Shown here piece after piece: positions 1-52,277 of a stretch of 52,277 nt of DNA (positions are counted from its first letter, which is position 1; every line of letters begins with the position of its first letter). The notes under the pieces are model-generated. The model was not told where the DNA came from and ran no database searches. It was given only the letters and a program-made list of their open reading frames with translations. Source of the stretch: a virus. The stretch lies in the IMG/VR virus record IMGVR_UViG_3300005618_000005, positions 1 through 52,277 of that record. One strand, given 5' to 3'. Position numbers and translations under genes: made by a program.

Positions 1-100
1 AGACCAAGGGCCGACATCCAAACAGCAGAGCCGAGACTTTGGTCGGCGCCGCGGATCTTTTTGTCGAGGACGTGCCGAATCGTTGACCCGATTTGGGCCA
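1..100. repeat. Left copy of 100-bp terminal direct repeat
   Basis: Bases 1-100 are identical to 52178-52277, and an open reading frame continues in register across the join. This is what a circular assembly, or a circularly permuted headful-packaged genome, looks like when opened at an arbitrary point. Because the repeat lies inside a coding region, a functional terminal repeat is less likely. The unique genome length is then about 52,177 bp. Confidence 0.95.
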
Positions 101-10742: not shown

Positions 10743-12038
10743 TTAGTTGAAGATCCGCATTTTCCAGTTGCCTACAGGCAGGTCGATTTGCGCCGTCCCG
10801 AGGTTAAAAAGCGTCGCCCGAACCGAGTCGGCGGCGATGACGCGAATATCAGACGACACGCCCTCGTAAAATGAGTAAGGCGCCCCGAGGATACATTGGT
10901 CCCCAAGGGCCGCGCCCGGGACGAGGAAATCCTCATAAAACCCGTAGCCAGGCGCGACCGTGCCGGGACCCCAGCCAAAAACCGTGTACAGCTCCTTGCG
11001 GTCGTCAAAACGGGTGTCGACGTTGCCGCCAATCCCGAAAAGTTCATTCACGTAGTTACTCGTCCCCGTGTCACTCACGGCCAGTGCTCCAAGGATGGCG
11101 CCAAAAGTGATGTCATGTATCCGAGACTCCGTTACGCTAGTACCGACAAAAATCGCCTCCTCTTCGCAGTTAGAAATATAGAGATCGTGAAAGGCCGCGT
11201 TGAGCCCTTCCTCGAGAGAGACCCCTCTAAACCACGGTTCGCCGGAGCCCAAGATTTCGGAGTCTGAAAAGTCGATCGCGTCCCCAAAGGCCCGCACCGC
11301 AATGGCCGACGTCCCGGCACTCAGGAAATGGGCGTCGGTGATATTGGCCCCACTGACCGGAGATGAGGCCGAGCCGAGACTAAGCCCCACCTCCGTGCAG
11401 TTTATGGTGACCGAACTAACCCGCGCTTTCCCCGAGAGGAAAGACAGTGCTGTCCCCACCTGTTCGACGGCGAACCCTTCGGCGCCGTTCCAACCGTCCG
11501 AGGCGGGGTCGAAAGTAAAGCCGTTGCCCCCTTCGAAAATAAGTGTCGTGACGTCGAGTCCATCGCCCTTCACCAGGGCAAAGCCGGTGATCCTGTCCGG
11601 CGGCGCGGAGCAGGCGTAGCGGCCCGCCGGGAAATACAACATCCCCATTCCGGCCAGGTTGAGGTCGAAAATCGCCGCATTGATGGCCGCGAGGTCATCC
11701 ACGCCCGTACCTGTGGCGCCGTAAAGCCTCACGTTGAAGCAATACCTGGCCCAGATGTTTTCGAACTCGCCGTAAGGGTTCCCTGGGGGTCGGCGGCGCA
11801 CCGCAAGCGCGGGTTGGTCGCCGTCTAAGATCTTCGTTCCGCCGCCCCCGGGGCCTATGGCGACTGTCGTCGAGAGAAACCTGACGCCATTCCAATAAAC
11901 AAACCCGGGCGGTTGCCCCTGCCAGGTTACTCCCGAAAGATCAACGAGGGGACCGGCCGTGCCAACCCAAGAGGGCTTGCCAAAGATCCCGTCCCATGGC
12001 GCCTGTGCGGCCCAGTCTGCTATAGGAATGCGGTTCAT
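10743..12038 (-). CDS. Pectate-lyase-fold tailspike protein (431 aa)
   Basis: The start at 12038 overlaps the adaptor gene stop by ATGA. Residues about 1-120 are a Gly/Pro/Trp-rich attachment region. At about 125 the classic right-handed beta-helix entry appears: VRLYGATGTGVDDLAAINAAI, then LYFPAGRYACS. This matches the pectate-lyase superfamily N-terminal motif of phage tailspikes. The helix continues with short Asn/Ser/Val repeats to about 340, followed by a beta-rich C terminus. Such spikes bind and often cleave capsule or O-antigen. No catalytic Asp/Glu pair can be assigned by eye, so depolymerase activity is not claimed. Confidence 0.82.
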   Translation of the reverse strand: MNRIPIADWAAQAPWDGIFGKPSWVGTAGPLVDLSGVTWQGQPPGFVYWNGVRFLSTTVAIGPGGGGTKILDGDQPALAVRRRPPGNPYGEFENIWARYCFNVRLYGATGTGVDDLAAINAAIFDLNLAGMGMLYFPAGRYACSAPPDRITGFALVKGDGLDVTTLIFEGGNGFTFDPASDGWNGAEGFAVEQVGTALSFLSGKARVSSVTINCTEVGLSLGSASSPVSGANITDAHFLSAGTSAIAVRAFGDAIDFSDSEILGSGEPWFRGVSLEEGLNAAFHDLYISNCEEEAIFVGTSVTESRIHDITFGAILGALAVSDTGTSNYVNELFGIGGNVDTRFDDRKELYTVFGWGPGTVAPGYGFYEDFLVPGAALGDQCILGAPYSFYEGVSSDIRVIAADSVRATLFNLGTAQIDLPVGNWKMRIFN

Positions 12039-13063
12039 CGCACATAAATCATGTCACCCATGGAGGCACCTGGGTCGAAAGTGATAGCCGGGTTGCGAGC
12101 CTTGCCGCGGTAACTGAAGGCCTCTTTGCGCAAAATATCCACGGCGGCGCCTTTATATTGGCCGTAGCCCTCGATGTCCGAGATCTCACGCTTTTGAATG
12201 GCCATAATCATACTCATGAGTGCTGGGAGGTTCGAGATGATGAGTATGTCGTTGTCGTTTTCGACGGGCACAAACCGCCGCCTCCCGCGCACCAAAATCT
12301 GCATGTTGGTGAAATTCTGGTAGCAGGGCGGACAAACGGAACGTCCGAGCCACTCGCCCTTGAGTGCGGGAATAAAGTAAGCGTGGTAGCTTGGCGTCGT
12401 CTCCTGCGGGGCGTAGCTTGCAAGAAGCACGTCTTGCGACGGAAAGCCGTTCGTGGCCCAGAGTTCAACGTAGCCGTTGGTCTCCGGCTTCACCACACCT
12501 GTAATTTCACTGAACTGAGCCGTGCCGTAAAACTGGGTTGAAAGGTCAAGCTGCTCGCCCGTGATATAGCCGGTGCCAAAGAAAGAGCGGACCTCTCGGC
12601 GGCTATTATACAGGAATCCCTGAACAAGCATCGTTGGCGTGATGCCGTCCACGTCTTCATCGAGCTCGCATTTCGTATAGAGGGAGTAAGGGCCGCCCGT
12701 CCCAGGGAAGGCGAATTGGAGCGGGGTCTCGTCCCGGTCAATTACTGTGTCGATCCAGTTGCAGCCACCCTGCGGGCCAGGGCCGTATTCAACAAACTCA
12801 TACCACGGCGACCGCATTGAGTAAGGAATATTGTTGAGCGCCACCCCCATAATCCGGTCAAGGAATGACGGCAAAATAATGTCGCCTGTATTCGAGGAGA
12901 AGAGGTAACGGTCGACGACGCCGGGCCAATCGCCCTCGTTCATCAGTTCTTCGGTCGCGTCGTTAATCCGGTCCACAATGCGCGGATCGTTCATCTTGAA
13001 ACCACTCGTTCCGGCGATGCGGGCGAGTTTGGCGCGGGCTTGTCCTAGGGTGCGACGGATCAT
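12035..13063 (-). CDS. Head-tail adaptor / tubular protein A-like (342 aa)
   Basis: The N terminus (RIVDRINDATEELMNEGDWPGVVDRYLF) matches the helical opening of gp11-type adaptors that dock on the portal ring. A beta-rich middle follows. The C-terminal helical segment (MSMIMAIQKREISDIEGYGQYKGAAVDILRKEA) is characteristic of the group, and the family name here is by eye. It starts by ATGA-type overlap with the 105-aa gene upstream and overlaps the tailspike gene downstream. The order adaptor, spike, nozzle suggests an assembly unit. Confidence 0.72.
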   Translation of the reverse strand: MIRRTLGQARAKLARIAGTSGFKMNDPRIVDRINDATEELMNEGDWPGVVDRYLFSSNTGDIILPSFLDRIMGVALNNIPYSMRSPWYEFVEYGPGPQGGCNWIDTVIDRDETPLQFAFPGTGGPYSLYTKCELDEDVDGITPTMLVQGFLYNSRREVRSFFGTGYITGEQLDLSTQFYGTAQFSEITGVVKPETNGYVELWATNGFPSQDVLLASYAPQETTPSYHAYFIPALKGEWLGRSVCPPCYQNFTNMQILVRGRRRFVPVENDNDILIISNLPALMSMIMAIQKREISDIEGYGQYKGAAVDILRKEAFSYRGKARNPAITFDPGASMGDMIYVR

Positions 13064-13377
13064 AGTCTTTCAATTCCGAGGGCCATCATGATTGCGAAAT
13101 GTTCCTGGGTGGGCGGAGCGGCTCGCGCGATGTAATGGCGAAGCGCTTTCTCGATGACCCCTTTTGCTTTGTCGCTCACCTCGAACTCGTGGACCGTTTC
13201 ACCAAGCCTTGCGAACTCCTCGGGGCGGGCCGTTGAAGGGAGGTATTTCTCCTTCGGCCACTCAGAGAGTGCTTTTCCCGCGTCGTAGAAGTCGCCGAAA
13301 TCCTTTGCCCAGCCTTCTTGACCGAGAAGTGAGCGGAGGGCGTTTACCTGGGGTTGTGTGAATTTTTGAAGCGCCAT
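13060..13377 (-). CDS. Conserved-looking small virion-region protein (105 aa), unknown
   Basis: I do not recognise this protein. It is mixed alpha/charged, with FTQPQVNALRSLLGQEGWAKDFGDFYDAG near the N terminus and a Lys-rich middle. It lies 4 bp after the fibre gene and overlaps the adaptor gene by 4 bp, so it is translationally coupled to head-tail genes. It could be a fibre chaperone or a head-completion protein. Neither is supported by a motif. Confidence 0.65.
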   Translation of the reverse strand: MALQKFTQPQVNALRSLLGQEGWAKDFGDFYDAGKALSEWPKEKYLPSTARPEEFARLGETVHEFEVSDKAKGVIEKALRHYIARAAPPTQEHFAIMMALGIERL

Positions 13378-13381
13378 GATT

Positions 13382-15463
13382 TTAAGTGGTCAGGAGGTCG
13401 ACCGCGGCCCCGTTAATCTCAACCCGTACGGTGCCTCCCTGGACGGCGGCGCCAGCCGTGCGGTTTCCAAGTCGCCAGGTTTGGGCGGTCCCTCCTGTGG
13501 GCGCAGCCGTCTGGAGATAGGTGCCGACCGTAAGGCCTCCGGCCATCGTCCAATTAGTGGCATCGAACTGCGCCTTAATGGCGCCACCCGTACCAATCGC
13601 GAGAATGATATTGTCCGTGAGGCCAGCTGCGAGTCCCGTCACATTAGCGCCGAGAATCGTGTTGCCCGTGCCGGTCGTGATACCCAATCCGGTTGAATAG
13701 CCGACCGCGGTGTTAAGCCCGTCTCCCGCGGTCGTGAGGTTATGGTTTTGTAGGGCGGTGGTTCCAACAGCGGTGTTTTTACTGCTCTTCGTATTGGACT
13801 GCATGCAGGCCCTGCCGATGGCCATGTTGTCGCTGCCTTCGGTGTTGCTATTGAGGGCCTGGCGGCCGAGCGCCACGTTCTGGACGCCGGTCGTATTTGA
13901 TGTGAGTGCCGCGACACCCAAACCGGTGTTACTCGCGCCCGTCGTATTCGCGTTGAGCACATTTAGCCCAACGGCCGTGTTGGTTGAAGCGTTCCCTGCC
14001 CCGCGCCCCACCTTAACGCCGTTGAAATTGGAGTCCGAAGTCGTGGTTACGCTAACCCACGTGGGCGACGCACTCGTCTGAATATCCTGAACTGTATTCA
14101 GAGAACCAGTACTAAGCGTGAGCGAGGCCCCGGCGGTCAGTTCCTCGACAGCGCCGGTTGAGGCGGTTGTGCGGCCCAGAATGCGAGCCGTCGCCATTGT
14201 GAATGTGGTTGCGGGGATGCTCGCGAAGTCGGCCGCCACGAGTGCGCGAAAAGTCGGTGCCGCCGCTGAGCCAGTCGTCGGCCCAGCGAAAACCGTGTTC
14301 GCCGATTGCGTGCCGAGCGTCACCGCAAGAGTTCCGCTTGTCGTTACCGGAGAACCCGCGACAGAAAGAAAGCTTGGGACGGTGAGCCCGACGCTTGTCA
14401 CGGTGCCTGTTCCCGGCCCTGAGCCCGCGACCGAGATGTTTCCGCTCGCATCAGAAACAAGCGTTCCCGCACCGAGAGTCGAAAGCTGAAGAGCCGTTTC
14501 TATCTTGAATAGGCTTGCGGTCCCTCGGAAGTATTCGGTGTAGCTTGCACCCCTGAAAATGAGCGGCGTCGCGTCGATATTGAGCTCGTTTGGAGTACTG
14601 GCGTTGAGCGATTGAAAATACCCAAGTCCCCCACTCACGCCGTAATTCACTCCGAGCCCACTAAAACTCGAGTAGCCGGTAGCTATCAAGGACCCGCCGG
14701 ATTGGATTTTCCCAGCGGAGACAACCGAGCCAGCAGTGTCGATCGAAAGAAAAGTGTGGTCAGTCCCGTCGTAGTAATTAACGACAAACTGATTTCCGGA
14801 ACCATCTGGAGTTGCGGCAGTGTAGGGCGTCCCCATATACCACTCGTCCGTGGTGCCCCGAATAAATTCCATGATTGCACTCTTGGAATTATCCGGGCGA
14901 ATCATTCGCATCCGGGCGTCCTGGCCCGTGGACGCCATCGTTAAAATCGAGTGGCCCGAGCGCTCGATATAAAAGGCCGTGGAGCCAGGGAGGGCGCCTC
15001 CACTCGAGATGTTGCCCGAGTCGTCGACAATGAGGAGCGAGTTTTGCCCCAGCTTGCCGGTCGTCCCATCAAACCTAACAACGGCGTTATCGGTAGCCGA
15101 GGAAGGGCCGACGAAGTCGCCCCCACTGGGCGTCGTGTAGCTAAATACTCCGCTCCCATCATTGGTTAAAACCCCCGCGGCGTTGGCCAGGGCCGAGATG
15201 GAGGTGAGTTTCGCATTTAGCGGCTGATAAACCCCCGAAAGATCCGGGATGTCGGCGACTACCAGGGCGCGAAAAGTCGGGTCGGCTGGCCCACCCGCGG
15301 CTGGCCCCATCCAGGCCGTATTGGCCGCCTGAGCTACAAGAGCCAGCGCAAGCACCCCCGCCGTCGTCACAGGGCTTCCTGTAACGGCGAAGATCGACGA
15401 CGGGGCCGTGAGGCCCACGCTCGTCACTGTGCCAGTGGCACCTGCCAATTTGAAGAGCGGCAT
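13382..15463 (-). CDS. Trimeric tail fibre with beta-roll repeats (693 aa)
   Basis: An N-terminal collagen/adhesin-like module occurs twice (about residues 10-75 and 355-420). Both copies share TVTSVGLT.PS, GSPVTT.G.LA, QSANT/QAANT, and PTFRALV.AD, implying internal duplication. Residues about 480-640 carry tandem beta-roll repeats of the YadA-head/fibre type: NTAVGLNVL, NTGLGVAAL, NVALGRQAL, NMAIGRACM, NTAVGTTAL, each about 14-16 residues apart. The gene sits between the major capsid gene and the adaptor block, an unusual location for a fibre. A terminator lies just upstream, so its expression may be uncoupled from capsid expression. Receptor binding is inferred. Confidence 0.8.
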   Translation of the reverse strand: MPLFKLAGATGTVTSVGLTAPSSIFAVTGSPVTTAGVLALALVAQAANTAWMGPAAGGPADPTFRALVVADIPDLSGVYQPLNAKLTSISALANAAGVLTNDGSGVFSYTTPSGGDFVGPSSATDNAVVRFDGTTGKLGQNSLLIVDDSGNISSGGALPGSTAFYIERSGHSILTMASTGQDARMRMIRPDNSKSAIMEFIRGTTDEWYMGTPYTAATPDGSGNQFVVNYYDGTDHTFLSIDTAGSVVSAGKIQSGGSLIATGYSSFSGLGVNYGVSGGLGYFQSLNASTPNELNIDATPLIFRGASYTEYFRGTASLFKIETALQLSTLGAGTLVSDASGNISVAGSGPGTGTVTSVGLTVPSFLSVAGSPVTTSGTLAVTLGTQSANTVFAGPTTGSAAAPTFRALVAADFASIPATTFTMATARILGRTTASTGAVEELTAGASLTLSTGSLNTVQDIQTSASPTWVSVTTTSDSNFNGVKVGRGAGNASTNTAVGLNVLNANTTGASNTGLGVAALTSNTTGVQNVALGRQALNSNTEGSDNMAIGRACMQSNTKSSKNTAVGTTALQNHNLTTAGDGLNTAVGYSTGLGITTGTGNTILGANVTGLAAGLTDNIILAIGTGGAIKAQFDATNWTMAGGLTVGTYLQTAAPTGGTAQTWRLGNRTAGAAVQGGTVRVEINGAAVDLLTT

Positions 15464-21873: not shown

Positions 21874-22631
21874 AATTGGTATCCTCGGTCTTTTAACCAT
21901 GGGTGGACGATTTCGGGGTGCTTCCCGGCGAAATCACGAAGTGGAGCACCGTCGAAAAAGTCGTAGTCGTCCCAACGGGCGTATTTCTCTTGGGCCGTGT
22001 GGATGCGCGGGTCCACGCTCCCAAAAAAGCAGTTTTGAACCACCCTACTTTTGGCCACGAAGGCATCGGGCAAACGGATCATCCCATAGTGATAAATATG
22101 CAGCCCCGAGTAGACCTCGGCCCGGTCGCGAATATTTGGATGCACCGCGGGCTCGGGTTCGTCGGAAGGCAAATAGAGTTTCGTTGGACCAAGTCGCGCC
22201 ACCATTTCCCCGCAGCATTTGTTCCAGGGCACAAGGTGCTGCGCATCGCGCCAAAACGTATAGCGGCGAAACATCCCGGCCGTTTCGTCCTGCATCGCCA
22301 GTTTGATCGAGGAGTAGCTTTCAGGCCCGAGGACCTCGTCAGCGTCCAACTGCAAAAGCCACGCCTCGGGGTCCAGGCGCTCGCGCGCGTAATTAAGCGC
22401 CTTCACCCACCATTGCGGGTCGTTGTGCGGTTTTTCCCAGGGCTGGCGCCGCAGCCTCACCTTGTGCTCAGACCCCAACTTTTGCTCGAGGTCCTCCCAT
22501 GAGCCGTCGTCGGACTGCATGTCACTTACTACGACGGTGTCGCAAATAGGCATAAGGGAACGCGCCGCCTCAACCGTCATATAGTCGAGGGAGCGGTGAT
22601 TGCGGGAGACGACCAATCCAACAAGGTTCAT
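21870..22631 (-). CDS. GT2 family glycosyltransferase (253 aa)
   Basis: The GT-A fold is seen in LVGLVVSRNHRSLDYMTVEAARSL and TVVVSDMQSDDGSWEDL, followed by WLLQLDADEVLGPESY with the D-A-D-E metal and nucleotide-sugar motif near residue 95. Trp-rich acceptor elements follow (FWRDAQHLVPWNKC). The family transfers sugars from nucleotide donors, usually inverting. ATGA overlaps on both sides place it in one translational chain with the GT2-GT9 fusion and the methyltransferases. Confidence 0.85.
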   Translation of the reverse strand: MNLVGLVVSRNHRSLDYMTVEAARSLMPICDTVVVSDMQSDDGSWEDLEQKLGSEHKVRLRRQPWEKPHNDPQWWVKALNYARERLDPEAWLLQLDADEVLGPESYSSIKLAMQDETAGMFRRYTFWRDAQHLVPWNKCCGEMVARLGPTKLYLPSDEPEPAVHPNIRDRAEVYSGLHIYHYGMIRLPDAFVAKSRVVQNCFFGSVDPRIHTAQEKYARWDDYDFFDGAPLRDFAGKHPEIVHPWLKDRGYQL

Positions 22632-24151
22632 TTTACGGTCGCTCCTTCGAGAAGAGTGTCGACATTGGCGGTCACGTATTCGGGTTTGATCGAGAGCATG
22701 GATTCGCCGGTCGTAGGAATGGAGACTTGCGCGGCCGTGAAGTGGCGGGCGCCGGACTCCGCGATTCTCGGGTCACCCTGGACGAAGGCCTTTGGACTAC
22801 CGTCCGTCATTATATACTCGGGCAGCGTGCATCCAAAAAGCCCCAGGCTCGGCGTCCCCATCGCCTGGGCCACATGGAGCGGAAAACTGTCCAGGCCGAT
22901 AAAGAGCTGGCACCTGGCGAGCACGGCCGCCAATTGGAGCGTGTCTGTTAGCCCGCGCAAATCCCGGTCGCTAATGATGGGCGTCAAGTCCGAGTGGCCC
23001 ACCAAAACCACTTTCATGTCGTGCTCTTTTTTCACGTGAGCGATGACGTCATTCCACCGCTCCTTCGGCCAATTTTTCCCGGGCCAGGTCGTGGGTCCCG
23101 CGTGGATCGCGCACCAATCGCCTTTCTTAAGCAGTGAATCCGCGTACTTTTTGTGGAGCTCGTTTGGATAGAGCCGCGTCACGAACTTATCGATTGAGAG
23201 TTCTGCCGCGGCGGCGTAGGCCGCGCAGATGTGAGTGCGGATTTTACTCTCGTAACTCATGTCGAGATTAATGACGCGCATCTCGTGGTTGCGGTCGATC
23301 TTCGTCGCGGCCCGGCTCACGTGCGGGTTACCCGCGAAGGTCTCCGGAAAGGCCGTCTCAATGAGAATTGGCGAAAGGGGATTTTCCCGGGCGAGTCGCT
23401 CCAAGATCGCCGTCACGAGGACCACGTCACCGCGAGCCGCCCAGCGCCGAATGAGAATAGGGAAATCAAACTTCCGAATCCTAAGATAGTGGTTCCACTT
23501 CTTGCGGAGAACAGCGTGGTTTTTCGCCTGGATTTGATTGATGTTCGGGATGTGGGCCGAAGTCGCGGCTCTTTGATGGCGAAGCGGCAAATCCACCTTG
23601 TGAAGGGTGTAGCCCAGTTTGCGCAGGCGAAGCGAAAGGTCGGAGTCCTCTCCGTATGCGAATTCCAAATACGGAGCGAAGAGGCCTTCGCGTTTTACGA
23701 TTTCGGTTTTGCACATGAGGCAACTGCCCTCCAGGTACTCGAAATTCCCACCCTGGCGCCCGTGAAAATCATTGGTGAGCATTTGGCAGCCACCGGAGAG
23801 CCCCGCCAAGGCCGCCTTCGGGAACTCGCGGAACGGTTTCTCCATCGCCTCCAGCCAACCCGGCGGCACTTGCGTGTCGTCGTTTAGCATGACGAAAAAC
23901 TCGCTATCGGTGAGCGCCAAGGCCCGCCGGTTGGGTTCAATAAAGCCCTCGTTTTTCGGGTTGTGAATCACCGTCACCCGGCCGGGATGCTCCGCGGCCA
24001 CTTGGTCAAAGAAGACGCCGACGTCGTGCGGCGACCCGTTGTCGGTTAAAATCAGGTACGTGTCGGCCGGTGAATAATCGAGGACGGAGCGAATGCAGCC
24101 TCGCGCCAAATGCAGCGCTTTATAGCAAAGAATGGAGACCGTGAATTTCAT
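22628..24151 (-). CDS. Two-domain glycosyltransferase: GT2 fused to GT9/heptosyltransferase-like (507 aa)
   Basis: Residues about 1-230 are a GT2 domain: FTVSILCYKALHLARGCIRSVLDY, LILTDNGSPHD, FFVMLNDDTQVPPGWLEAM (N-D-D metal motif) and FAYGEDSDLSLRLRKLGY (acceptor-side E-D). From about 235 on, the sequence becomes GT-B GT9-like: GDVVLVTAILERLARENP, CAIHAGPTTWPGKNWPKERW, MKVVLVGHSD, LFIGLDSFPLHVAQAMGTPSLGLFG. The latter is the nucleotide-binding signature of heptosyltransferases. One polypeptide thus carries two different folds that could add consecutive sugars. It overlaps its neighbours by 4 bp at both ends. Confidence 0.85.
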   Translation of the reverse strand: MKFTVSILCYKALHLARGCIRSVLDYSPADTYLILTDNGSPHDVGVFFDQVAAEHPGRVTVIHNPKNEGFIEPNRRALALTDSEFFVMLNDDTQVPPGWLEAMEKPFREFPKAALAGLSGGCQMLTNDFHGRQGGNFEYLEGSCLMCKTEIVKREGLFAPYLEFAYGEDSDLSLRLRKLGYTLHKVDLPLRHQRAATSAHIPNINQIQAKNHAVLRKKWNHYLRIRKFDFPILIRRWAARGDVVLVTAILERLARENPLSPILIETAFPETFAGNPHVSRAATKIDRNHEMRVINLDMSYESKIRTHICAAYAAAAELSIDKFVTRLYPNELHKKYADSLLKKGDWCAIHAGPTTWPGKNWPKERWNDVIAHVKKEHDMKVVLVGHSDLTPIISDRDLRGLTDTLQLAAVLARCQLFIGLDSFPLHVAQAMGTPSLGLFGCTLPEYIMTDGSPKAFVQGDPRIAESGARHFTAAQVSIPTTGESMLSIKPEYVTANVDTLLEGATVK

Positions 24152-26716: not shown

Positions 26717-28504
26717 TTACCAGACCTCGACGTCGACGTATTCTCGCTCGTAGAGGCGCGCCGCTTTCTGGGCACGAAGCCGCTGAGCGTGCCATTTCTG
26801 GCTGACCGGCAAACGCTCGTCTTTGCTGGCCTGCAGCGCGAAATCCAGCACCAGGAGTTCCGAGAACTGGCAATACGCGTCGCCGTTGTCGGGCGAGCGG
26901 CCGAGCCGCTTCTTGAGTTCATCCTTCGTTTCGACCTGGGAGAGTTTGCCCTTGGTGAACTGTTTGTTCTCATAGCGGCGCACGTGAAGATCATCGAGCG
27001 TCTTTTTGTTCAGCCGGTCCAGACCGCCGAGAAGGCCGTCGTACGCCAAGTAGGAGGCTCGGAACCAGAGTTCCGATACGAAATAGCGCACGACGTCGCA
27101 CGCTTTATCGACCTGGCCTGCCCGCAAGGGCCGCTCCGTCGCCTCCCCGCCGTAGTTTATTCCCACTACGTCCGGCGACCACTCCTTTTGCAAAATCGCG
27201 TAGACGCCGCGCGCGTTGCCCGTCTTGTCCTGGATGAAATTCCGTGGTGAAACACCCCAGAGAGCACATAGGCGCATTACCTCATGGGCGACTTGGTAGT
27301 CCTCAGGCTCAAGGCCCTGACCTTGCTTCACCTGGATTTTCACCGACTCAACGCCATTGATCGCCATCCGGCCGTCGCGGAGTTTTCCTTTTTCGCCGCG
27401 GTGAAGAACGCAATCGTCGTAACTGAAGGCCGGGTCCAGTGCGGCGCAGGCCTCGGGCGCAAAGTCGAACTGTAAGATTTGGCGGGCTCTCTCGATCGCG
27501 GCCGTGGGCCAGACGCGCGAGACAATGCCATCCGGCGGGAAAAATCCGCGGACGTAACTCCACCACTCTTTGGAATGCTCGCCGAACTGTTTCCGGATCT
27601 CCTCGATCTCGGTCGGCCCGAGCATATAGGCGTAACGCTTCTTCCCGTCGATCAGCCCCGTTTTCATGTTCGGGTTTTGAAGCCCGTCCAGGTGAATGCA
27701 GATGCCGCCCTGTTTCGTTTTCCAAAAGAGGTCCGTGTCGTGGATGGATGTCCAGCCTCCTATCGGCTCACAGGCCTTGCCGAAATCGGTGTACCGGTCG
27801 ATGGCGTTCGACATGTCCACGATCTTCACGTCCGGGTCGGTGCGCACGTTGGCGAAGGTCTCGTAAATCACGGTCGGCATGTCGTCGGCCTCGTCCAGAA
27901 TGAGGCGGCGCCTGGGCGCGTGCTTACCACGAATCCGGCCTGAGGCGTCCGCGGTGCGGCTCGTGGCCATGCCCTCGATAATATATTTATCGAACTCGTG
28001 GGTCTTCATTCCTCCGGCGGCCTCGACGTCGAACATGACGTTCATCCGGTTACTGCTCGAGTAAACCTTGAGCATCTGCCGAACCTCGGGCGCCACCGAC
28101 TCGTGAGCGCGCATGAGGTCGCCCCACATGCGAAGGCGAAGGCCGTCCGCCGTGACCGTCGTAAGGGACGTCATCGTCGTGAAGGGCTCGGCTAACCAGT
28201 CGAGGTAGGCGCAAAACGCCAGGTTGTAGGTCTTGCCCGCCGCACCGTGGCCCATGATCGAAATCCGCGAGTACTCACACCACGCCTCGCAGATAATTTT
28301 ACTCCAGTCGTTCCAATCGAAATGCGGCCAAACGATCCGCCAGGCGTTCCGGAAATGCTTATAGGCTCCGAGTCCGCCGTCCTCGGGCTTGCGGTTCTCG
28401 CGGTAGCAGGCGAGTTCGAGCGGGAGGAGCGATGCGCCCTTTGGCCAGAAAGACCCATAAATGAGATCATGCCCTGGGGGCGGTTTTTTCCAGCCGTCAC
28501 TCAT
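26717..28504 (-). CDS. terL: Terminase large subunit (595 aa)
   Basis: Residues about 80-95 contain RISIMGHGAAGKTYNLAFC, a Walker A (GHGAAGKT). Walker B is RRRLILDEADDMP, followed by a motif III-like SNAID. The C-terminal nuclease half has ACAALDPAFSYDDCVLHRG (first acidic cluster), NFIQDKTGNARGVY (second) and GRSPDNGDAYCQFSELL (third), as in RNase H-fold headful nucleases. Length is normal for the family. It cuts and pumps concatemeric DNA through the portal. Its small-subunit partner lies 5.5 kb away at 34010, an uncommon separation. Two palindromes and a hairpin precede the gene. Confidence 0.92.
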   Translation of the reverse strand: MSDGWKKPPPGHDLIYGSFWPKGASLLPLELACYRENRKPEDGGLGAYKHFRNAWRIVWPHFDWNDWSKIICEAWCEYSRISIMGHGAAGKTYNLAFCAYLDWLAEPFTTMTSLTTVTADGLRLRMWGDLMRAHESVAPEVRQMLKVYSSSNRMNVMFDVEAAGGMKTHEFDKYIIEGMATSRTADASGRIRGKHAPRRRLILDEADDMPTVIYETFANVRTDPDVKIVDMSNAIDRYTDFGKACEPIGGWTSIHDTDLFWKTKQGGICIHLDGLQNPNMKTGLIDGKKRYAYMLGPTEIEEIRKQFGEHSKEWWSYVRGFFPPDGIVSRVWPTAAIERARQILQFDFAPEACAALDPAFSYDDCVLHRGEKGKLRDGRMAINGVESVKIQVKQGQGLEPEDYQVAHEVMRLCALWGVSPRNFIQDKTGNARGVYAILQKEWSPDVVGINYGGEATERPLRAGQVDKACDVVRYFVSELWFRASYLAYDGLLGGLDRLNKKTLDDLHVRRYENKQFTKGKLSQVETKDELKKRLGRSPDNGDAYCQFSELLVLDFALQASKDERLPVSQKWHAQRLRAQKAARLYEREYVDVEVW

Positions 28505-36092: not shown

Positions 36093-36368
36093 ATGCCTAA
36101 TCAATACTCTTTCGACGGTCACGGAATTAACGACAAGGGGAGCGAATTCACCCCGCGTCTCGCCACGCTCACCAAGGAGGGCCACGAGCGCAAAGTCGGC
36201 CCTTTGTTCGCTGCTGCGCCTGACATGCTCACCGCGCTCGAATTCGTCGTTGGCCTCACCAACGGCAAAAACCGTTTCGCGCCTAAACTCTCCATGCAAG
36301 ACGCCAATCGGGAATGGGCAAAATTCGTCAAGATGGCTCGCAAGGTCATCAGCGAAGCCAGGGCGTAA
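36093..36368 (+). CDS. Small protein with LFAAAPDMLTALE motif (91 aa)
   Basis: The sequence includes LFAAAPDMLTALEFVVGL, a helix that marks a widespread but uncharacterised small phage protein type, and a basic C-terminal helix. The leader is CTTTCTCACTTCAATTTAT with no Shine-Dalgarno. It is separated by 29 bp from its upstream neighbour. Confidence 0.66.
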   Translation: MPNQYSFDGHGINDKGSEFTPRLATLTKEGHERKVGPLFAAAPDMLTALEFVVGLTNGKNRFAPKLSMQDANREWAKFVKMARKVISEARA

Positions 36369-36399
36369 CCACTCTTTCACTACAGCCTTTCCAGCTCTT

Positions 36400-36861
36400 A
36401 TGAAGCAATACGAAATCAAACTCCAGTACCTTTGCGTTTCCGAGTCCGAACACGGCAAAGCTCCCCACGTGGGCCGCGCTGACCAAGTGCCCGGCTATAT
36501 GAAGGGCGCTTTCGACGAACGCCCCGAGCAAGAAAGTTTTTGGGTTATTTGCCTCAATCGCAAAAACCGCGCTCGCGCTCGCCATTGCGTCACCCTCGGG
36601 ACGCAAACCAACTCGCTTGTTCACCCTCGCGAAGTCTTCCGCCCGGCAATCCTCAGTAACGCGTGCGCTATCATTTGCGTGCATAACCATCCCTCAGGCG
36701 ATCCAACACCCTCGCAAGCTGACATTCAGGTTACGCGCCAACTTCGCGACGCTGCAAAAACCGTGGGCATAGACCTGGTTGACCACGTCATCATTGGCGA
36801 GAAGAGCGAGGACCCGCAAGGCCTCGGCTATTACTCCTTTCGCTCCGCTGGGCTCATCTAA
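36400..36861 (+). CDS. radC-like: RadC/JAB-domain protein (153 aa)
   Basis: The JAMM metalloprotease-type motif is present: an upstream acidic residue in ESFWVICLNRKNRARARHCV and the core ICVHNHPSGDPTPSQADIQVTRQL (H-x-H-P-S-G...S-x-x-D), then VDHVIIG and YSFRSAGLI. This is the RadC (DUF2466) fold common in mobile elements, of unproven biochemical role despite its name. The N terminus (about 30 residues) is unlike full RadC. The leader is pyrimidine-rich (CCTTTCCAGCTCTT). A terminator follows. Confidence 0.88.
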   Translation: MKQYEIKLQYLCVSESEHGKAPHVGRADQVPGYMKGAFDERPEQESFWVICLNRKNRARARHCVTLGTQTNSLVHPREVFRPAILSNACAIICVHNHPSGDPTPSQADIQVTRQLRDAAKTVGIDLVDHVIIGEKSEDPQGLGYYSFRSAGLI

Positions 36862-37305: not shown

Positions 37306-37566
37306 ATGACTCCAGACCATAACATGCATTCCAAGATTGAAGCGCTCGCGAGCGTGCAATCGCTTCTAGCGGCGGAGCCTTTCCGGCCGTTCGAAATCGC
37401 CACGACGGGCGGCAAAACTTTCACCGTCCCGCACCCAGAATACCTCCACGTCTCTGTGATGGGTTCGCGGGTTTACATCGACGGCGCGGACGGTAGCCTT
37501 GCGATTGTTCACGCGAGCCAAATCTCGCACGTCGCCACCAAGACCCGCAAACGCAAAGCCGCATGA
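37306..37566 (+). CDS. Small beta-rich protein, unknown (86 aa)
   Basis: The sequence FRPFEIATTGGKTFTVPHPEYLHVS...VYIDGADGSLAIVHASQISHV looks like a compact beta fold and closely resembles hypothetical proteins found in bacterial genomes near integrated elements. It ends KTRKRKAA. The leader is TTTCCTCCTC. It overlaps the next start by ATGA. Confidence 0.66.
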   Translation: MTPDHNMHSKIEALASVQSLLAAEPFRPFEIATTGGKTFTVPHPEYLHVSVMGSRVYIDGADGSLAIVHASQISHVATKTRKRKAA

Positions 37567-37761: not shown

Positions 37762-37791
37762 GCCCCGGTTTTCCAAGACCGGGGCTTTTTT
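37762..37791 (+). terminator. Strong rho-independent terminator
   Basis: GCCCCGGT and ACCGGGGC pair around TTTCCAAG and are followed by T6. It ends the 34.7-37.7 kb block. Confidence 0.9.
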
Positions 37792-37829
37792 GTGCCTATT
37801 TGGTAAATAGTTATTGATCTCCGCTCTGT

Positions 37830-37921
37830 TCCGCCTAAACCGGAACACCAATGAGAGGGACCACCCTTGAGCGAATAAGACCCCACCGCGCTTTAGCGGA
37901 CTTAACGGGGCCTAGTCTTTA
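37830..37921 (+). promoter_or_regulatory. Structured leader: TGTTCCG inverted repeat and nested hairpins
   Basis: TGTTCCG-CCTAAAC-CGGAACA is a 7-bp inverted repeat. It is followed by AAGAC, CCCC, CCGC, GCTTTA, GCGG, CGGGG and GTCTT, which pair in nested order (AAGAC/GTCTT, CCCC/GGGG, CCGC/GCGG). They precede the gene at 37936. A leader RNA or operator is plausible. Confidence 0.5.
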
Positions 37922-37935
37922 AAGGGGTCCCATGA

Positions 37936-39153
37936 ATGGCGGAACGCGTAACCAAAACTTGCATACCTATGGTCTCTGAAACTCTGGCGGAAACGAAAGC
38001 GGGTTGGAAGATATGGAACCCCGAGGAACAAATCGCCGTTGCCCACAAGGCCGTCGAACGAATGCTGGCCCTAAAATGCACGAAGTTTCCCAGCTACGGC
38101 GCCCACAGCACCACGCGGTGCGTGGATTGGGCGCAAAGGCAGGTCTTACCGAAGGCGCGTCACCGCTGGATTTCTGAATTCTTGCACGTTCAGAAAGCGG
38201 GAATCGTCCCAGTGATGGAAGAGCGGTGGAAGGAACTCACAGGCGAAGGGGCGCTAAAGGCCCCTCCAATACCCGAAAAAGAGGACGTTCCCGAGGAAGT
38301 GAAGGTCGAGGAGCCGACCCAGGTTTCCCTTCCACTCCACACGCGCAAAGCCCGCGTTTGCTGGACCATTAACGAAACAGAAAACGTGATGGCGTTAGCC
38401 GTGAACCGAATGAAGGCGCGAGGGATGGGACAAATCCCGATGCCAGGAGACCGAATAGGGCGAGCGATCCTGATCGAGGAAGTTCGGTCAGCACAAAACC
38501 AACTCTTACCGCGGGAACGCCACCGAAAGTTAGCGGGGAGCGCACTCCTCAACGATCGCGACGAACTTCTCTTAGAAAAGTTCATGAAGAACCCGAGGGA
38601 AGAGCCAAAGATAGAAGCCCCGCCGCCTCCCATAACGATCACCCCGACCGCTGAAGCCGTCCCGAGAGTAGAGTTACCCCCAGCCCCGCCGATAGCCCCG
38701 ACAGAAACCCCAGGTGACACCCTAACCGGCTTTTTAAGTTACCTCCGAAATATAGAAACGACGGTTCGCGAGACTAAGGAGCTAAACCAAATGCTCATGG
38801 AGGATATTGAGAAGCTTAACGAACGTATTTCGACGCTGGAAAAGCAGCGCGTAACGATCCCAGCGCTACCAAAAGAAAAACTTCCGACTGTTGCCCTCCT
38901 CGGCATGCGTAAAGACGAGTTCGATATAATCAAAGAAGCCTGCGACTCAAAAAACCTGGCGCTCGACTTGCGGCTATTCGAGCAGGACACCAAGCCGCGC
39001 CCGGTGAATTGCGAGTGGGCCGTCGCGATGCACTTCATGAGCCACGCGTGGAACGACCAAGTGAAGGACTCCGTTCCGAGCGGCCAATACACGTTCCTGC
39101 GGGGCGGAGTTTGGCAAGTGGTCCAGCAACTAGAGCTGTGGTTCAACCGGTAA
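37936..39153 (+). CDS. Possible DUF2325-like protein with duplicated N-terminal module (405 aa)
   Basis: Two copies of a Trp-anchored helical module occur at about residues 22-78 and 145-200: WNPEEQIAVAHKAVERMLALK...AQRQVLPKARHRWI and WTINETENVMALAVNRMKARG...AQNQLLPRERHRKL. They resemble Myb/SANT-like helices. Then come a Pro-rich linker, a coiled coil (about 265-305) and a C-terminal domain VALLGMRKDEFDIIKEAC...WAVAMHFMSHAWNDQVKDSVP...GGVWQVVQQLELW, similar to DUF2325. DNA binding by the duplicated module is inferred. The DUF2325 call is by eye. Confidence 0.7.
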   Translation: MAERVTKTCIPMVSETLAETKAGWKIWNPEEQIAVAHKAVERMLALKCTKFPSYGAHSTTRCVDWAQRQVLPKARHRWISEFLHVQKAGIVPVMEERWKELTGEGALKAPPIPEKEDVPEEVKVEEPTQVSLPLHTRKARVCWTINETENVMALAVNRMKARGMGQIPMPGDRIGRAILIEEVRSAQNQLLPRERHRKLAGSALLNDRDELLLEKFMKNPREEPKIEAPPPPITITPTAEAVPRVELPPAPPIAPTETPGDTLTGFLSYLRNIETTVRETKELNQMLMEDIEKLNERISTLEKQRVTIPALPKEKLPTVALLGMRKDEFDIIKEACDSKNLALDLRLFEQDTKPRPVNCEWAVAMHFMSHAWNDQVKDSVPSGQYTFLRGGVWQVVQQLELWFNR

Positions 39154-39161
39154 TTTCTCCC

Positions 39162-39680
39162 ATGAATAACCAACTAAATCCAATGACGGGGCCAAACTTT
39201 TGCCCCAACTGTGGCTGTAATATCAAGGCAATCGCGCTTTCGATGGCCTTCGCTGCCGGGCAATTCAACGAACCGGAAGCGCCCAAACAACTGGCAACGC
39301 CGCCGGTTCAATCCCTCGCAAGGGGTATCGAGAAATCAAAAGAAGTCGCACGCCTATGGGAGGAGGCCAAAGCCAAAGGGAAGAACATGACCGAACTTAG
39401 CATGGAGCTAAAAATGTCGACGGGGACCATTTGGTACCATGTCGACAAGGTCGCGAGCGCCAATAAGCCCAAAGTGAAAGCGGCCTCAAAACCACCGACG
39501 CCCACCTTCCGGCCGGTCATCTCGAAAGAAATGAAAGACGACATCTTCCGGCGTTATAAGGCCGGGGAAGCGCCCATTGCCATCGCGAAATCGCTAGGCT
39601 TAAAGCATACCACGGTCGGCTCAATCATCTATAAGCGCAACCACGCTGAGCGTGAGCGTGCGCTGGAGGTCGCCGTATGA
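39162..39680 (+). CDS. Zinc-ribbon/double-HTH protein (172 aa)
   Basis: ATG 39162 follows TTTCTCCC. A ribbon-like FCPNCGCNIKAIA near residue 12 is followed by helical DNA-binding stretches: ARLWEEAKAKGKNMTELSMELKMSTGTIWYHVDKV and DIFRRYKAGEAPIAIAKSLGLKHTTVGSIIYKRN. Each is a helix-turn-helix with a Ser/Thr-rich recognition helix (resolvase/HTH_38-like). It is probably a regulator or recombinase-type DNA-binding protein. Confidence 0.74.
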   Translation: MNNQLNPMTGPNFCPNCGCNIKAIALSMAFAAGQFNEPEAPKQLATPPVQSLARGIEKSKEVARLWEEAKAKGKNMTELSMELKMSTGTIWYHVDKVASANKPKVKAASKPPTPTFRPVISKEMKDDIFRRYKAGEAPIAIAKSLGLKHTTVGSIIYKRNHAERERALEVAV

Positions 39681-39994
39681 GTGTTTCGGATACAAAGGAA
39701 GAGGCGCCACCTAAACGACTCGGTAAACCGGTAAACTTCCTCGCAAACCGAGACGACCACGCTTGCGTCCTTTTGGCCTCCATGGGCTTTTCGACGGCCT
39801 ATATTTGCCAGCGAACGAAGCTCTCCCATTCCCAGGTGAGTTACCGGATTCAAAAGGCCGGGCTCACCATTGCAAATCACATGAGCCGCTCGGATTTTCG
39901 TAACGGCACCTCGCCATTTTCGGATTTAATCCTAGGCGCCGCCCGCCAGGTGGTTGACGTGCATTTGATCCGTCACCTGAAAGCGAACCTGTGA
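39677..39994 (+). CDS. Small HTH protein (105 aa)
   Basis: GGAGGT stands upstream and ATG 39677 overlaps the previous stop. The sequence ACVLLASMGFSTAYICQRTKLSHSQVSYRIQKAGLTI is a helix-turn-helix with SHSQVSYRIQ as recognition helix. It resembles the second HTH of the preceding protein. It is probably a DNA-binding partner encoded in tandem. Confidence 0.7.
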   Translation: MSVSDTKEEAPPKRLGKPVNFLANRDDHACVLLASMGFSTAYICQRTKLSHSQVSYRIQKAGLTIANHMSRSDFRNGTSPFSDLILGAARQVVDVHLIRHLKANL

Positions 39995-44755: not shown

Positions 44756-45163
44756 TCATTTTTTCTTGGCTAGGGCGAAAAAGACGAATTCTCGGTCATG
44801 CTTGGTCTGCAGTTGCCCGGCCTTGGCCAGCCGGGCGATGGTCTTTCGCAGCCGGTGGTTATCGACCAGGAAGGGATATTTAAGCGCCTGAAGGGCGGCT
44901 CGCACGTCTGCGTTCGATAGCCACTTTCCATCGGCAAAAACCTTCTTTAGAAGGGTGTCCTCCATGAAGTATTTCGGCGCCCTTTTCTTGTCCGCGCCGA
45001 GGTCCACAGGGAGCACTAGGCGGCTGGTCGAGGTGGGGAAATTCGTTAATTCCTCGAGGGCTTTCTCGGTTCTTCTAAGACGGGCGAGCCGAGCTTCCAT
45101 CTCGGCAATCTCCCGCCGGGTTTCTGCGAGCGTTGTCTGATAGGTAGTGGTTGTTTCATTCAT
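44756..45163 (-). CDS. Coiled-coil plus winged-helix-like protein (135 aa)
   Basis: Residues 1-40 form a coiled coil (TLAETRREIAEMEARLARLRRTEKALEEL). The C-terminal half, ADGKWLSNADVRAALQALKYPFLVDNHRLRKTIARLAKAGQL, has the helix-strand arrangement of a winged helix. ATG 45163 overlaps the integrase TGA (ATGA). Co-expression with the integrase suggests a regulator or accessory factor. It is not a typical small excisionase. Confidence 0.68.
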   Translation of the reverse strand: MNETTTTYQTTLAETRREIAEMEARLARLRRTEKALEELTNFPTSTSRLVLPVDLGADKKRAPKYFMEDTLLKKVFADGKWLSNADVRAALQALKYPFLVDNHRLRKTIARLAKAGQLQTKHDREFVFFALAKKK

Positions 45164-46416
45164 GAGGTGATGAACTGTTCAAACGAGCCGCTTGTGACGG
45201 CCTTCGGAGTTAGTTTTGCCCAGAGCTTGCCGTCCTTTTCGGTGGCAACCCCCTCGTACTCTTCGGTCATGGTTAGACTGGAGTGCTGGGCGAGGTAGCT
45301 GGTACGAGACACATCTTTTGTCGATGCGAGATTGTAGCTGATGCAAGAGTGGCGGAGGATGTTATGGAACGCCCTTTTTTTGAGCTTAAAGCCCGCGCGA
45401 ATAAAGGCCTGGGCTTTACGGACGGCGTACATCTTTTCGTCGAGAGCCCAAGTTTCCTCGGTCGCGAGCGAAAGCCAATCCCAAAGGACTTCGGCATGTC
45501 CTTGGCGGAACTTCCACTTGCCGCCCTTATGCTGTTTACCGGGCATCTTGAGGCCCTTCTCCTCAAAGTTCACGTGCTCCTTGAGGATTCGGGCCGCACT
45601 GGAGGCACGCATAAAACCCCACATCTCAAGGGCAATCCGCGGGACGACCGGCTCGTGAATGTTGGTCTGGAGGAAGTGGAACGCCTTCTCGATCGAGAAA
45701 AGCTCCTTGTCCTTGGCGATCACCTTGGGCGGCACAACTTCGGCACAAGGATTAACTTCGAGCCATTTTTCGGCACAAGCCCTGTTAAAGAACGTGTTCC
45801 AATTCTTTCGGTAGCTCTTTTTGGTGATCGCGGCGGCCGGTTTTTTGCCGTCCCGGTCCTTCACGGTCGCCAGTAGGTCGCGCAAATCCGCTGCGGTGAC
45901 ATCGACGAGTAACCGGTCGCCATAGGCTTTTGCCAGGAAGTCTACGAGGTGGCGCTTCATCTGCCGGTAAGTGGTCGACTTTTCGGCGATGTCTTCGGAG
46001 CGCCGGAGGGCGAGATACTTCCCAACCGTCTCGGAGACCGTCAAAGTCAGCGTCAGCTGGCCCTTGTATTTCTTCCACGCCTGCCAAACCTCGGCCATGG
46101 TAGCGTTAGTCTGCGCCTTAAAGAGCGACCATTCAGTGAGTTCGTTGTCCTTGACCTGAAGGGACGACGAACCAAGCCGCGCCGCTTGGTCGATCAGGTC
46201 TTGCGCCCTTTCGTTGCGCGCCGTCTCGTCCTCGAACGATTCAACCGTTCGCTGGGTGCCGTAGCGAACGAAGTGAGGCTTGGACCTGCCGTCTGTCCAG
46301 AAGCCGATTTTGATCCCTTTGGGGAGGAGTTTGCGCAGTTGTTTTGTCGCCTTGCTTTCGCTCTGTGCCACGTTGTGCCGGGGTAGTTCTGAATCTTGTG
46401 CCGTTTTTTGGCTCAT
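45160..46416 (-). CDS. int: Tyrosine recombinase / phage integrase (418 aa)
   Basis: The C-terminal catalytic domain has R in LEMWGFMRASSAARILKEHVNF, a Lys-containing beta turn (KHKGGKWKFRQGH), HNILRHSCISY (H-x-x-R-H-type), and the Tyr in AQHSSLTMTEEYEGVA. An N-terminal core-binding region (about residues 90-190) contains the SAM-like helices (TVSETVGKYLALRRSEDIAEKSTTYRQMKRHLVDFL). Its length is typical of temperate-phage integrases. I chose ATG 46416 rather than the upstream TTG. It shows that the phage can integrate. A hairpin and GTGCC/GGCAC repeats lie just upstream. Confidence 0.9.
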   Translation of the reverse strand: MSQKTAQDSELPRHNVAQSESKATKQLRKLLPKGIKIGFWTDGRSKPHFVRYGTQRTVESFEDETARNERAQDLIDQAARLGSSSLQVKDNELTEWSLFKAQTNATMAEVWQAWKKYKGQLTLTLTVSETVGKYLALRRSEDIAEKSTTYRQMKRHLVDFLAKAYGDRLLVDVTAADLRDLLATVKDRDGKKPAAAITKKSYRKNWNTFFNRACAEKWLEVNPCAEVVPPKVIAKDKELFSIEKAFHFLQTNIHEPVVPRIALEMWGFMRASSAARILKEHVNFEEKGLKMPGKQHKGGKWKFRQGHAEVLWDWLSLATEETWALDEKMYAVRKAQAFIRAGFKLKKRAFHNILRHSCISYNLASTKDVSRTSYLAQHSSLTMTEEYEGVATEKDGKLWAKLTPKAVTSGSFEQFITS

Positions 46417-46447
46417 ATACCCCCCTTTTTCCAACTTTTTCTTCCAA

Positions 46448-47540: not shown

Positions 47541-47877
47541 AATGCTTCTTTCGTCTAAAGAGCGCGTGGAGGTCAAAGGCCTCGATGCCTCCGACGCCAT
47601 GCAAAAATGTCTCGAGCGCTACCCGGGAACCACGATCAAGGAATGTTATTCCGGCTACAAAGAGACCCACTACTGCCACACGGGCCAGGGAACGATCGAG
47701 ATGGCGCCCGCCTGGATCGACTACGAAGTGCCCCCTCATTTCCCCTACCTGCCCGAGGACAAGGGTGTTCCTGAGATGTCCGCCTATTTCGACTTTATGG
47801 TCCAGGTTCCGGCCGCCCAGGAGCCAGCCAAACCCCGCAAGCGCCTTGTTGGCGCCAAAGAGAGGACCCACGCATGA
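47527..47877 (+). CDS. Unknown protein preceding the recombination genes (116 aa)
   Basis: ATG 47527 gives MLTYRMLLSSKERVEVKGLDASDAMQKCLERYPG, an alpha/beta pattern, then a Tyr/Pro-rich segment (YEVPPHFPYLPEDKGVPEMSAYFDF) and a basic tail. It overlaps the RecT-like gene by ATGA. No family was recognised. Confidence 0.64.
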   Translation: MLTYRMLLSSKERVEVKGLDASDAMQKCLERYPGTTIKECYSGYKETHYCHTGQGTIEMAPAWIDYEVPPHFPYLPEDKGVPEMSAYFDFMVQVPAAQEPAKPRKRLVGAKERTHA

Positions 47878-48542
47878 GCGAGCACGCAATAGACGTTCAG
47901 ACGACCCCAGCGCCCGAAAAGCCGCCCATCGCCGCGCCCAGTAAATCCAGTTTAATGAAGGTGGGCGAAAAGGGCATCCAATTGTCCACGGTTGAGGAGA
48001 TGCTCGTCTTTGCCGGGGCGGTGATCGACTCGGGCCTGGCACCCGCCAGTTTCAAAAACAAACAGGCGGTCTTGGTCGCCATTCAATACGGGGCTGAGCT
48101 CGGGCTGCCGCCCATGTCGGCACTCCAAAATATCGCCGTGATTAACGGGCGGCCTACCGTCTGGGGTGACGCGGTGCCGGGAATTGCCAACGCCTCCGGC
48201 CTGATCGAGGACTACTCTCAAGAGCAATTCGGCGAGGGTGACGGCTATGGCTGGAGAGTGACAATTCACCGCAAGGGTCGGTCAAAGCCCATCGTCAGCG
48301 AATACACCATTGCCGATGCGAAAGAGGCGAAACTGTGGGGGAAGGCCGGTCCATGGACTCAATTTCCCGACCGCATGCTTCTGAGTCGTGCCAGGACCTT
48401 CGGCTACCGCGACGCCGTGCCAGAGAAGATGCGCGGGCTAGTCACCGCCGAAGAGGCGCGCGACCTGCCCATGAAGAACGTAACCCGCTCCCTGGACGAC
48501 ATCGACACCCCACCCGATGAATTACGGCAAGATACTCAATGA
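47874..48542 (+). CDS. recT-like: RecT-like single-strand annealing protein (222 aa)
   Basis: The sequence VAIQYGAELGLPPMSALQNIAVINGRPTVWGDAVPGIANASG and AKLWGKAGPWTQFPDRMLLSRARTFGYRDAVPE matches the core of phage RecT annealases. The family binds ssDNA and anneals complementary strands, working with an exonuclease encoded beside it. It is followed with a 26-bp overlap by such a nuclease. The N terminus (about 30 residues) is disordered and acidic, the C terminus acidic too. Confidence 0.87.
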   Translation: MSEHAIDVQTTPAPEKPPIAAPSKSSLMKVGEKGIQLSTVEEMLVFAGAVIDSGLAPASFKNKQAVLVAIQYGAELGLPPMSALQNIAVINGRPTVWGDAVPGIANASGLIEDYSQEQFGEGDGYGWRVTIHRKGRSKPIVSEYTIADAKEAKLWGKAGPWTQFPDRMLLSRARTFGYRDAVPEKMRGLVTAEEARDLPMKNVTRSLDDIDTPPDELRQDTQ

Positions 48543-49386
48543 ACCGTTCGGCGACTATCGCGCAACCGATTGCGTGGGGTCGCATCGCCTTGATGACCTC
48601 ACACCCTTTCCGATTCGCTATAAGCTGCGGTATATAACGAAGGAGCTCCCGGAGCGGGCCGACACCCCCGCGTTCCGCTTCGGGAGGTTCTTTCACACCT
48701 TCGCCCTGGAGGGCGAGAAGGCCGTGAGCGAGCGATATGTCATGGTGCCAAACTGGGCGCCGAGCCGTCCAACGTCCCGCATGTTGGAGGCGGAAAAGCC
48801 CTCCATAAAAACGAAGGCCATGATCAAGTGGTGGGAGGAGTTCGACGCCGCGGCAAATGGGCGCGAAGAGATCGACGAAAACGACTGGGAAAAGGCTGCC
48901 AAAATGGTCGAGTCAGTGCGGACAAAGCCCTGTGTCGCGGACCTCTTCAAAGCCGGTTGCCCCGAGGTCACCTTTCGCCACAAAATGGCGAGCTTCGGGA
49001 TTCAAAGCCGCGTCGATTGGTTTGATGGCTCGGCGGAGGCGGCCCCCCTCATCGTCGACGTGAAGACGATCGAATCCCTGGAGGCCTTCGACAACCAATT
49101 CGAGAAGTACGGCTATTACCGCCAGGCGGCCTTTTACCGGCTTGTTGTTTCGAAGGTCCTGGGCATCCCGGCGGCTTTTATCCAATTCGCCTTTGCAGTG
49201 GTCGAAACGAAACCCCCTTACCTCTGCGCCCGGCGTGATCCTGACTTGGAGTCGCTGGACATCGGCGCGACCGAGGTCCTGGAGGACCTTAAGCTCCTCA
49301 AAACGTGCTACGATTCGGGCAACTGGCCGGGTTCGAGCGAATACGGCGTACCCGTCTCTCTGCCGGAATGGAAGACCCGCTCATGA
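48517..49386 (+). CDS. recE-like: RecE/Exo VIII-like PD-(D/E)XK exonuclease (289 aa)
   Basis: The nuclease core is FGIQSRVDWFDG...LIVDVKTIESLEAFDNQFEKYGYYRQAAFY, with acidic D in VDWF, D-V-K in IVDVKT and the Q/Y of motif IV. This is the PD-(D/E)XK arrangement of RecE C-terminal and Exo VIII-type phage nucleases. It pairs with the RecT-like annealase for recombination and possibly concatemer formation. It overlaps its neighbours, so expression is coupled. Confidence 0.87.
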   Translation: MNYGKILNEPFGDYRATDCVGSHRLDDLTPFPIRYKLRYITKELPERADTPAFRFGRFFHTFALEGEKAVSERYVMVPNWAPSRPTSRMLEAEKPSIKTKAMIKWWEEFDAAANGREEIDENDWEKAAKMVESVRTKPCVADLFKAGCPEVTFRHKMASFGIQSRVDWFDGSAEAAPLIVDVKTIESLEAFDNQFEKYGYYRQAAFYRLVVSKVLGIPAAFIQFAFAVVETKPPYLCARRDPDLESLDIGATEVLEDLKLLKTCYDSGNWPGSSEYGVPVSLPEWKTRS

Positions 49387-51912: not shown

Positions 51913-52277
51913 TTATTGTCGGCGGTTCGCTTTGCGTTGGTCGATAGGGAGCGTTTCGCGTAAGCCTGGAATGCCGGATTCGATGGCGCTCACCGGCCCC
52001 TCGGTCTTCCGTGGAATGACACCTTTCGAATCGCGGTCCAAGCCTTCGGCGACATTAGAAACAAGTTGCGGCACCAGAGTCGACTTCGCAATTTCCCCAC
52101 CCGCCTTGCTCGTTTCGCGAGGATCGAGGAGGCGCGCCACGGTCGAAGCGGAGTGCGCAAATGGCGTTTCATCGGCCAGACCAAGGGCCGACATCCAAAC
52201 AGCAGAGCCGAGACTTTGGTCGGCGCCGCGGATCTTTTTGTCGAGGACGTGCCGAATCGTTGACCCGATTTGGGCCA
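51913..52277 (-). CDS. Giant internal virion protein, C-terminal 120 codons
   Basis: This is the same reading frame as 1-4208, continued across the circular join (in frame at 52275, stop TGA/TAA at 51913). The segment includes SLGSAVWMSALGLADETPFAHSAS and ends IDQRKANRRQ. It holds the second copy of the terminal repeat. See the entry at 1-4208 for the whole protein. Confidence 0.85.
   Translation of the reverse strand, partial: AQIGSTIRHVLDKKIRGADQSLGSAVWMSALGLADETPFAHSASTVARLLDPRETSKAGGEIAKSTLVPQLVSNVAEGLDRDSKGVIPRKTEGPVSAIESGIPGLRETLPIDQRKANRRQ
52178..52277. repeat. Right copy of 100-bp terminal direct repeat
   Basis: Identical to bases 1-100; both copies lie in the same reading frame of the giant virion gene. 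This supports a circular map. Confidence 0.95.

Follow-up and report, generated by a model that had tools for sequence, protein, structure and literature searches.

A gene coding for a 405-residue orphan protein (P0001; positions 37936-39153, plus strand) was delineated in the genome of a temperate phage, where it would represent a lineage-specific accessory gene, probably gained at the head of a small regulatory operon, between its first gene and the conserved operator and leader that precede it. The protein appears to be modular, and we tentatively propose that it works as an oligomeric DNA-binding regulator or DNA-organising protein.

Genomic context of the 405-residue protein gene

The window, i.e., the whole stretch of DNA analysed here, is a virus record of 52,277 bases from a temperate phage. 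It carries genes for a tyrosine integrase (45160-46434), RecT (47874-48542), a DUF3799/PD-(D/E)XK nuclease (48517-49386) and RadC (36250-36861), the best match of RecT among the genomes being planctomycetal. Three related contigs were found in IMG/VR, hereafter G001 (42.7 kb), G002 (53 kb) and G003 (12 kb). In G001, the two window ends (1-4208 and about 51932-52277) adjoin each other (at 11091-15383 and 10843-11181, respectively), so that the window probably represents a genome that is circular or circularly permuted and was opened at an arbitrary position. Elsewhere in this genome, a 507-residue protein of the structural gene block (22628-24151), 89% identical in G001, was weakly matched to a glycosyltransferase (PHROG 3692, E 5e-4). 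A 595-residue protein (26717-28504) is 93% identical in the relatives and shows a weak resemblance, of about 27%, to Streptomyces phage terminases, with no PHROG or Pfam match. An 86-residue protein (37306-37566), of a small "FRPFxI...G....VPHPE" type, is conserved in G002 with 91% identity. A weak relative of it occurs in a Planctomycetota genome, and its gene is possibly host-derived.

The coordinates given for the open reading frame in the initial annotation were right. Its mean codon score is positive in its own frame and negative in the other five, its codon usage is close to that of the phage, and a GGGG-containing stretch located a few bases 5' of it could be a ribosome site. By codon usage and ribosome-site context, the frame thus looks like a real gene. 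It is followed on the plus strand by a gene for a zinc-ribbon-like and HTH protein (39162-39680) and by a gene for a 105-residue HTH-like protein (39677-39994), conserved in G002 and G003; these are the two HTH-type genes of the operon.

Searches for homologues of the protein were negative in phages and plasmids (tblastn, the rows listed having E values of 3 to 9) and, using peptide patterns, in IMG/VR and the genome collection. Scans of this kind detect only close relatives and the genomes are a sample, "orphan" being meant here within the searched sets. Among 387 Verrucomicrobiota and 334 Planctomycetota genomes no convincing homologue was found: the matches fell mostly on the linkers of the protein, and five from Planctomycetota, read residue by residue, were unconvincing. 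A two-row profile of the duplicated module described below returned five rows from 329 Pseudomonadota genomes, all in unrelated reading frames, and no NCBIfam or PADLOC model matched the protein. Weak tblastn matches in L021, L022, L028 and G001 turned out on checking to be due to chance or antisense, and a match in a Bacillus plasmid (E 9), next to yonO in an SPbeta-like region, was taken as chance. A consensus written for a putative proteobacterial family, in which a similar N-terminal motif would be joined to a short DUF2325-like end, yielded nothing convincing in phages, PHROGs and 299 genomes, and this family is therefore not used here.

An empty site in related phages

The gene is present in the window and absent at the syntenic site in G002 and G003, as is typical of an accessory gene. 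In both relatives, the leader runs straight into the zinc-ribbon/HTH gene, while the small genes before the site and the 105-residue protein gene after it keep the same order as in the window. The G001 alignment stops on either side of the 30.7-41.1 kb region, and this contig is therefore uninformative on the gene.

In the window, the gene is flanked by an exact 10-bp direct repeat, TCCCATGAAT, with a left copy at 37928-37937 and a right copy at 39158-39167 that overlaps the zinc-ribbon/HTH start codon; no third copy exists on the plus strand of the window. Among about 3000 random pairs of 35-base stretches, 3 showed a ten-base match, as did none of 325 pairs of start sites; the chance of such a flanking repeat is on the order of 1 in 1000. 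The exact repeat favours an insertion at the start codon that its right copy overlaps. The repeat search retrieved no inverted repeat at the two gene ends, and the gene matched no transposase family.

The distribution of the gene may reflect either its acquisition in the window or its disappearance from the relatives. In the second case, the gene would be old in this phage group and would have been lost from G002 and G003, the 10-bp repeat being then a coincidence. This scenario, which we regard as rather unlikely, draws on a codon usage near that of the phage itself and on the fact that only three genomes are informative; against it stand the empty arrangement common to two relatives and the rarity of a 10-bp identity at such a place. 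It would take two independent losses, or a single one in an ancestor shared by G002 and G003, and the data allow for both. Gain is probably the better reading.

The leader belongs to the operon

The initial annotation had assigned to the gene a structured leader of its own. Structured elements do exist upstream of it. Scanning detected an intrinsic terminator that belongs to the upstream gene and consists of a stem-loop (37762-37785, plus strand; fold z -3.3) followed by TTTTTT; G002 and G003 have a similar terminator in the corresponding position. It is followed by a 21-bp palindrome, TGTTCCG-N7-CGGAACA (37827-37847), the sole exact copy in the window, whose half sites are identical and identically placed in G002 and G003. 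Across three related phages (the window, 37827-37847; L091, 3143-3163; L093, 1854-1874), the half sites are invariant and the spacer between them is AT-richer. This palindrome is probably the operator that serves the HTH operon. Folding and a three-sequence comparison then indicated a leader hairpin, GACCCC...GGGGCC (37879-37912, plus strand), with counterparts GACCC/GGGTT in G002 and GGCCC/GGGCT in G003, a comparison that is limited to three sequences. The small hairpin beside the palindrome covaries among the three related phages. A CCCTTGA...CCC...GGG..TTAA.GGG stretch is likewise found in the leader of both relatives, in the corresponding position. The terminator and inverted repeats are thus real, but they are not specific to the gene: since the leader is conserved in two relatives that have no 405-residue protein gene, it belongs to the operon.

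Modular architecture of the protein

Alignment, shared residues and composition delimited two copies of a basic module in the N-terminal part, at residues 23-105 (38002-38250, plus strand; pI 9.4) and 139-222 (38350-38601, plus strand; pI 10.0). The motifs W..E....A..AV.RM.A and AQ..LP..RHR, on which an internal duplication had been proposed, are indeed carried by both copies, and the residues in common include W, E, V, AV, RM, A, P, G, V, AQ, LP and RHR. The local alignment of residues 1-115 with residues 116-230 scored 57, a value reached by none of 5000 shuffles (mean 26.9, sd 4.6, maximum 55; Gumbel p = 1.3e-4), and the best score among 243 other segments of open reading frames in the window was 41. 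Because the repeat score exceeds chance, the duplication is statistically supported, the modules being two diverged copies of 75-85 residues. As to the HTH-like character proposed at first, neither copy matched an HTH family in Pfam searches on the segments holding each module, and family profile searches gave no match of the modules to DNA-binding families. The N-terminal half remained below pLDDT 50 in the single-sequence AlphaFold model.

The linkers between the modules and the coiled coil are acidic and proline-rich, as in residues 223-262 (38602-38721, plus strand), recognised by composition. A helix at residues 259-303 is the sole part of the model with a pLDDT of about 70, and this region displays a heptad hydrophobic phase. 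Hence, the coiled coil noted at first is likely, and the model and the heptad phase place it probably at residues 263-306 (38722-38853, plus strand).

The C-terminal region and DUF2325

The last 99 residues (307-405; 38854-39150, plus strand) had been described as DUF2325-like, a claim for which profile and alignment searches brought no support. PF10087 had no match in the window at E values up to 10, and none in the protein. A DUF2325 profile was built in-house from 25 real segments, the proteins coming from Verrucomicrobiota, Pseudomonadota and other genomes; against the C-terminus it scored -2 bits with HMMER. A PSSM alignment to DUF2325 equalled the shuffle mean when local and fell below it end to end. 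The suggested HMM-HMM comparison, run with hhalign, aligned 11 unrelated columns with a score reached by 10 of 200 shuffles. All four tests are therefore at chance level, and the HHDGG motif of DUF2325 is missing. The single-sequence AlphaFold model of the C-terminal 102 residues (mean pLDDT 44) was too poor for a fold to be read.

A strongly diverged DUF2325 protein, in which a coiled coil and a C-terminal DUF2325 follow a new N-terminus, could nevertheless be imagined. By eye, the C-terminus has a VALLG start, an SH pair with a K seven positions on, and a V before the SH, all as in DUF2325, whose second conserved motif reads aD.vv...SH....K. Besides, the coarse layout is that of the long members of the family, which are of about 400 residues and in which a coiled coil connects the N-terminal part to a small domain at the C-terminus. 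The protein differs from them by its lack of profile similarity and of HHDGG and by its other N-terminus, DUF2325 proteins showing no duplication of such kind. Given the searches above, this origin is improbable, and membership in DUF2325 (PF10087) is not supported by the sequence. Nor would the domain order be new in itself, as had been believed, because true DUF2325 proteins commonly have the same layout (their coiled coils being assessed by eye). In the literature, DUF2325 is still without a settled function; the DUF2325 protein Cj1384 was linked to oxidative stress (PMC9426514), and the domain was found in an inovirus ORF (PMC10534721).

Possible function

The protein would consist of two basic modules and proline-rich linkers, followed by a coiled coil and by a small domain at the C-terminus. 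The coiled coil may lead to a dimer or a higher oligomer, in which several basic modules could act together and provide several contact points on DNA. Expressed with its HTH neighbours, such a protein might serve as a phage regulator or as a DNA-organising protein. This role appears the most likely because tandem basic modules on flexible acidic linkers, together with a coiled coil, occur next to HTH genes and an operator-like palindrome. The alternation of basic modules with acidic linkers, the coiled-coil helix, a duplication beyond chance, an operon with two HTH-type genes and a conserved palindrome in the leader all point in this direction. On the other hand, the modules matched no DNA-binding family and both AlphaFold models are of low confidence. 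More specifically, the W..E...AV.RM...AQ..LP..RHR module might be a new small DNA-binding fold, used in tandem by a protein that modulates the operator-controlled operon in which its gene was inserted, which we consider very improbable.

The main rival to a DNA-binding role is an action on host proteins through the linkers and the coiled coil, with no binding to DNA, for instance in counter-defence, in superinfection exclusion or as a scaffold. The accessory genes that temperate phages carry in variable slots often target the host, and proline-rich linkers with a coiled coil would suit a scaffold. However, the modules are basic, the neighbours are DNA-binding genes, and no PADLOC model matched, in a library that covers defence more than counter-defence. 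An action on host proteins thus seems unlikely, and a DNA-binding regulator or organiser remains our tentative preference.

Among known kinds of genes, the moron-type accessory genes include pid of P22, which is likewise a single extra gene in a variable slot, described as an ORFan (PMC3573128). Pid reportedly acts on a named host operon, whereas the gene of the 405-residue protein sits behind the conserved leader of an operon.

As it stands, the gene simply adds to the orphan accessory genes of uncultured phages. It nonetheless offers a clean case, in which a gene with a duplicated module lies behind a conserved operator, at the position of a start codon, with a 10-bp flanking repeat and two relatives showing the empty site. 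If the module binds DNA, it would constitute a new binding domain.
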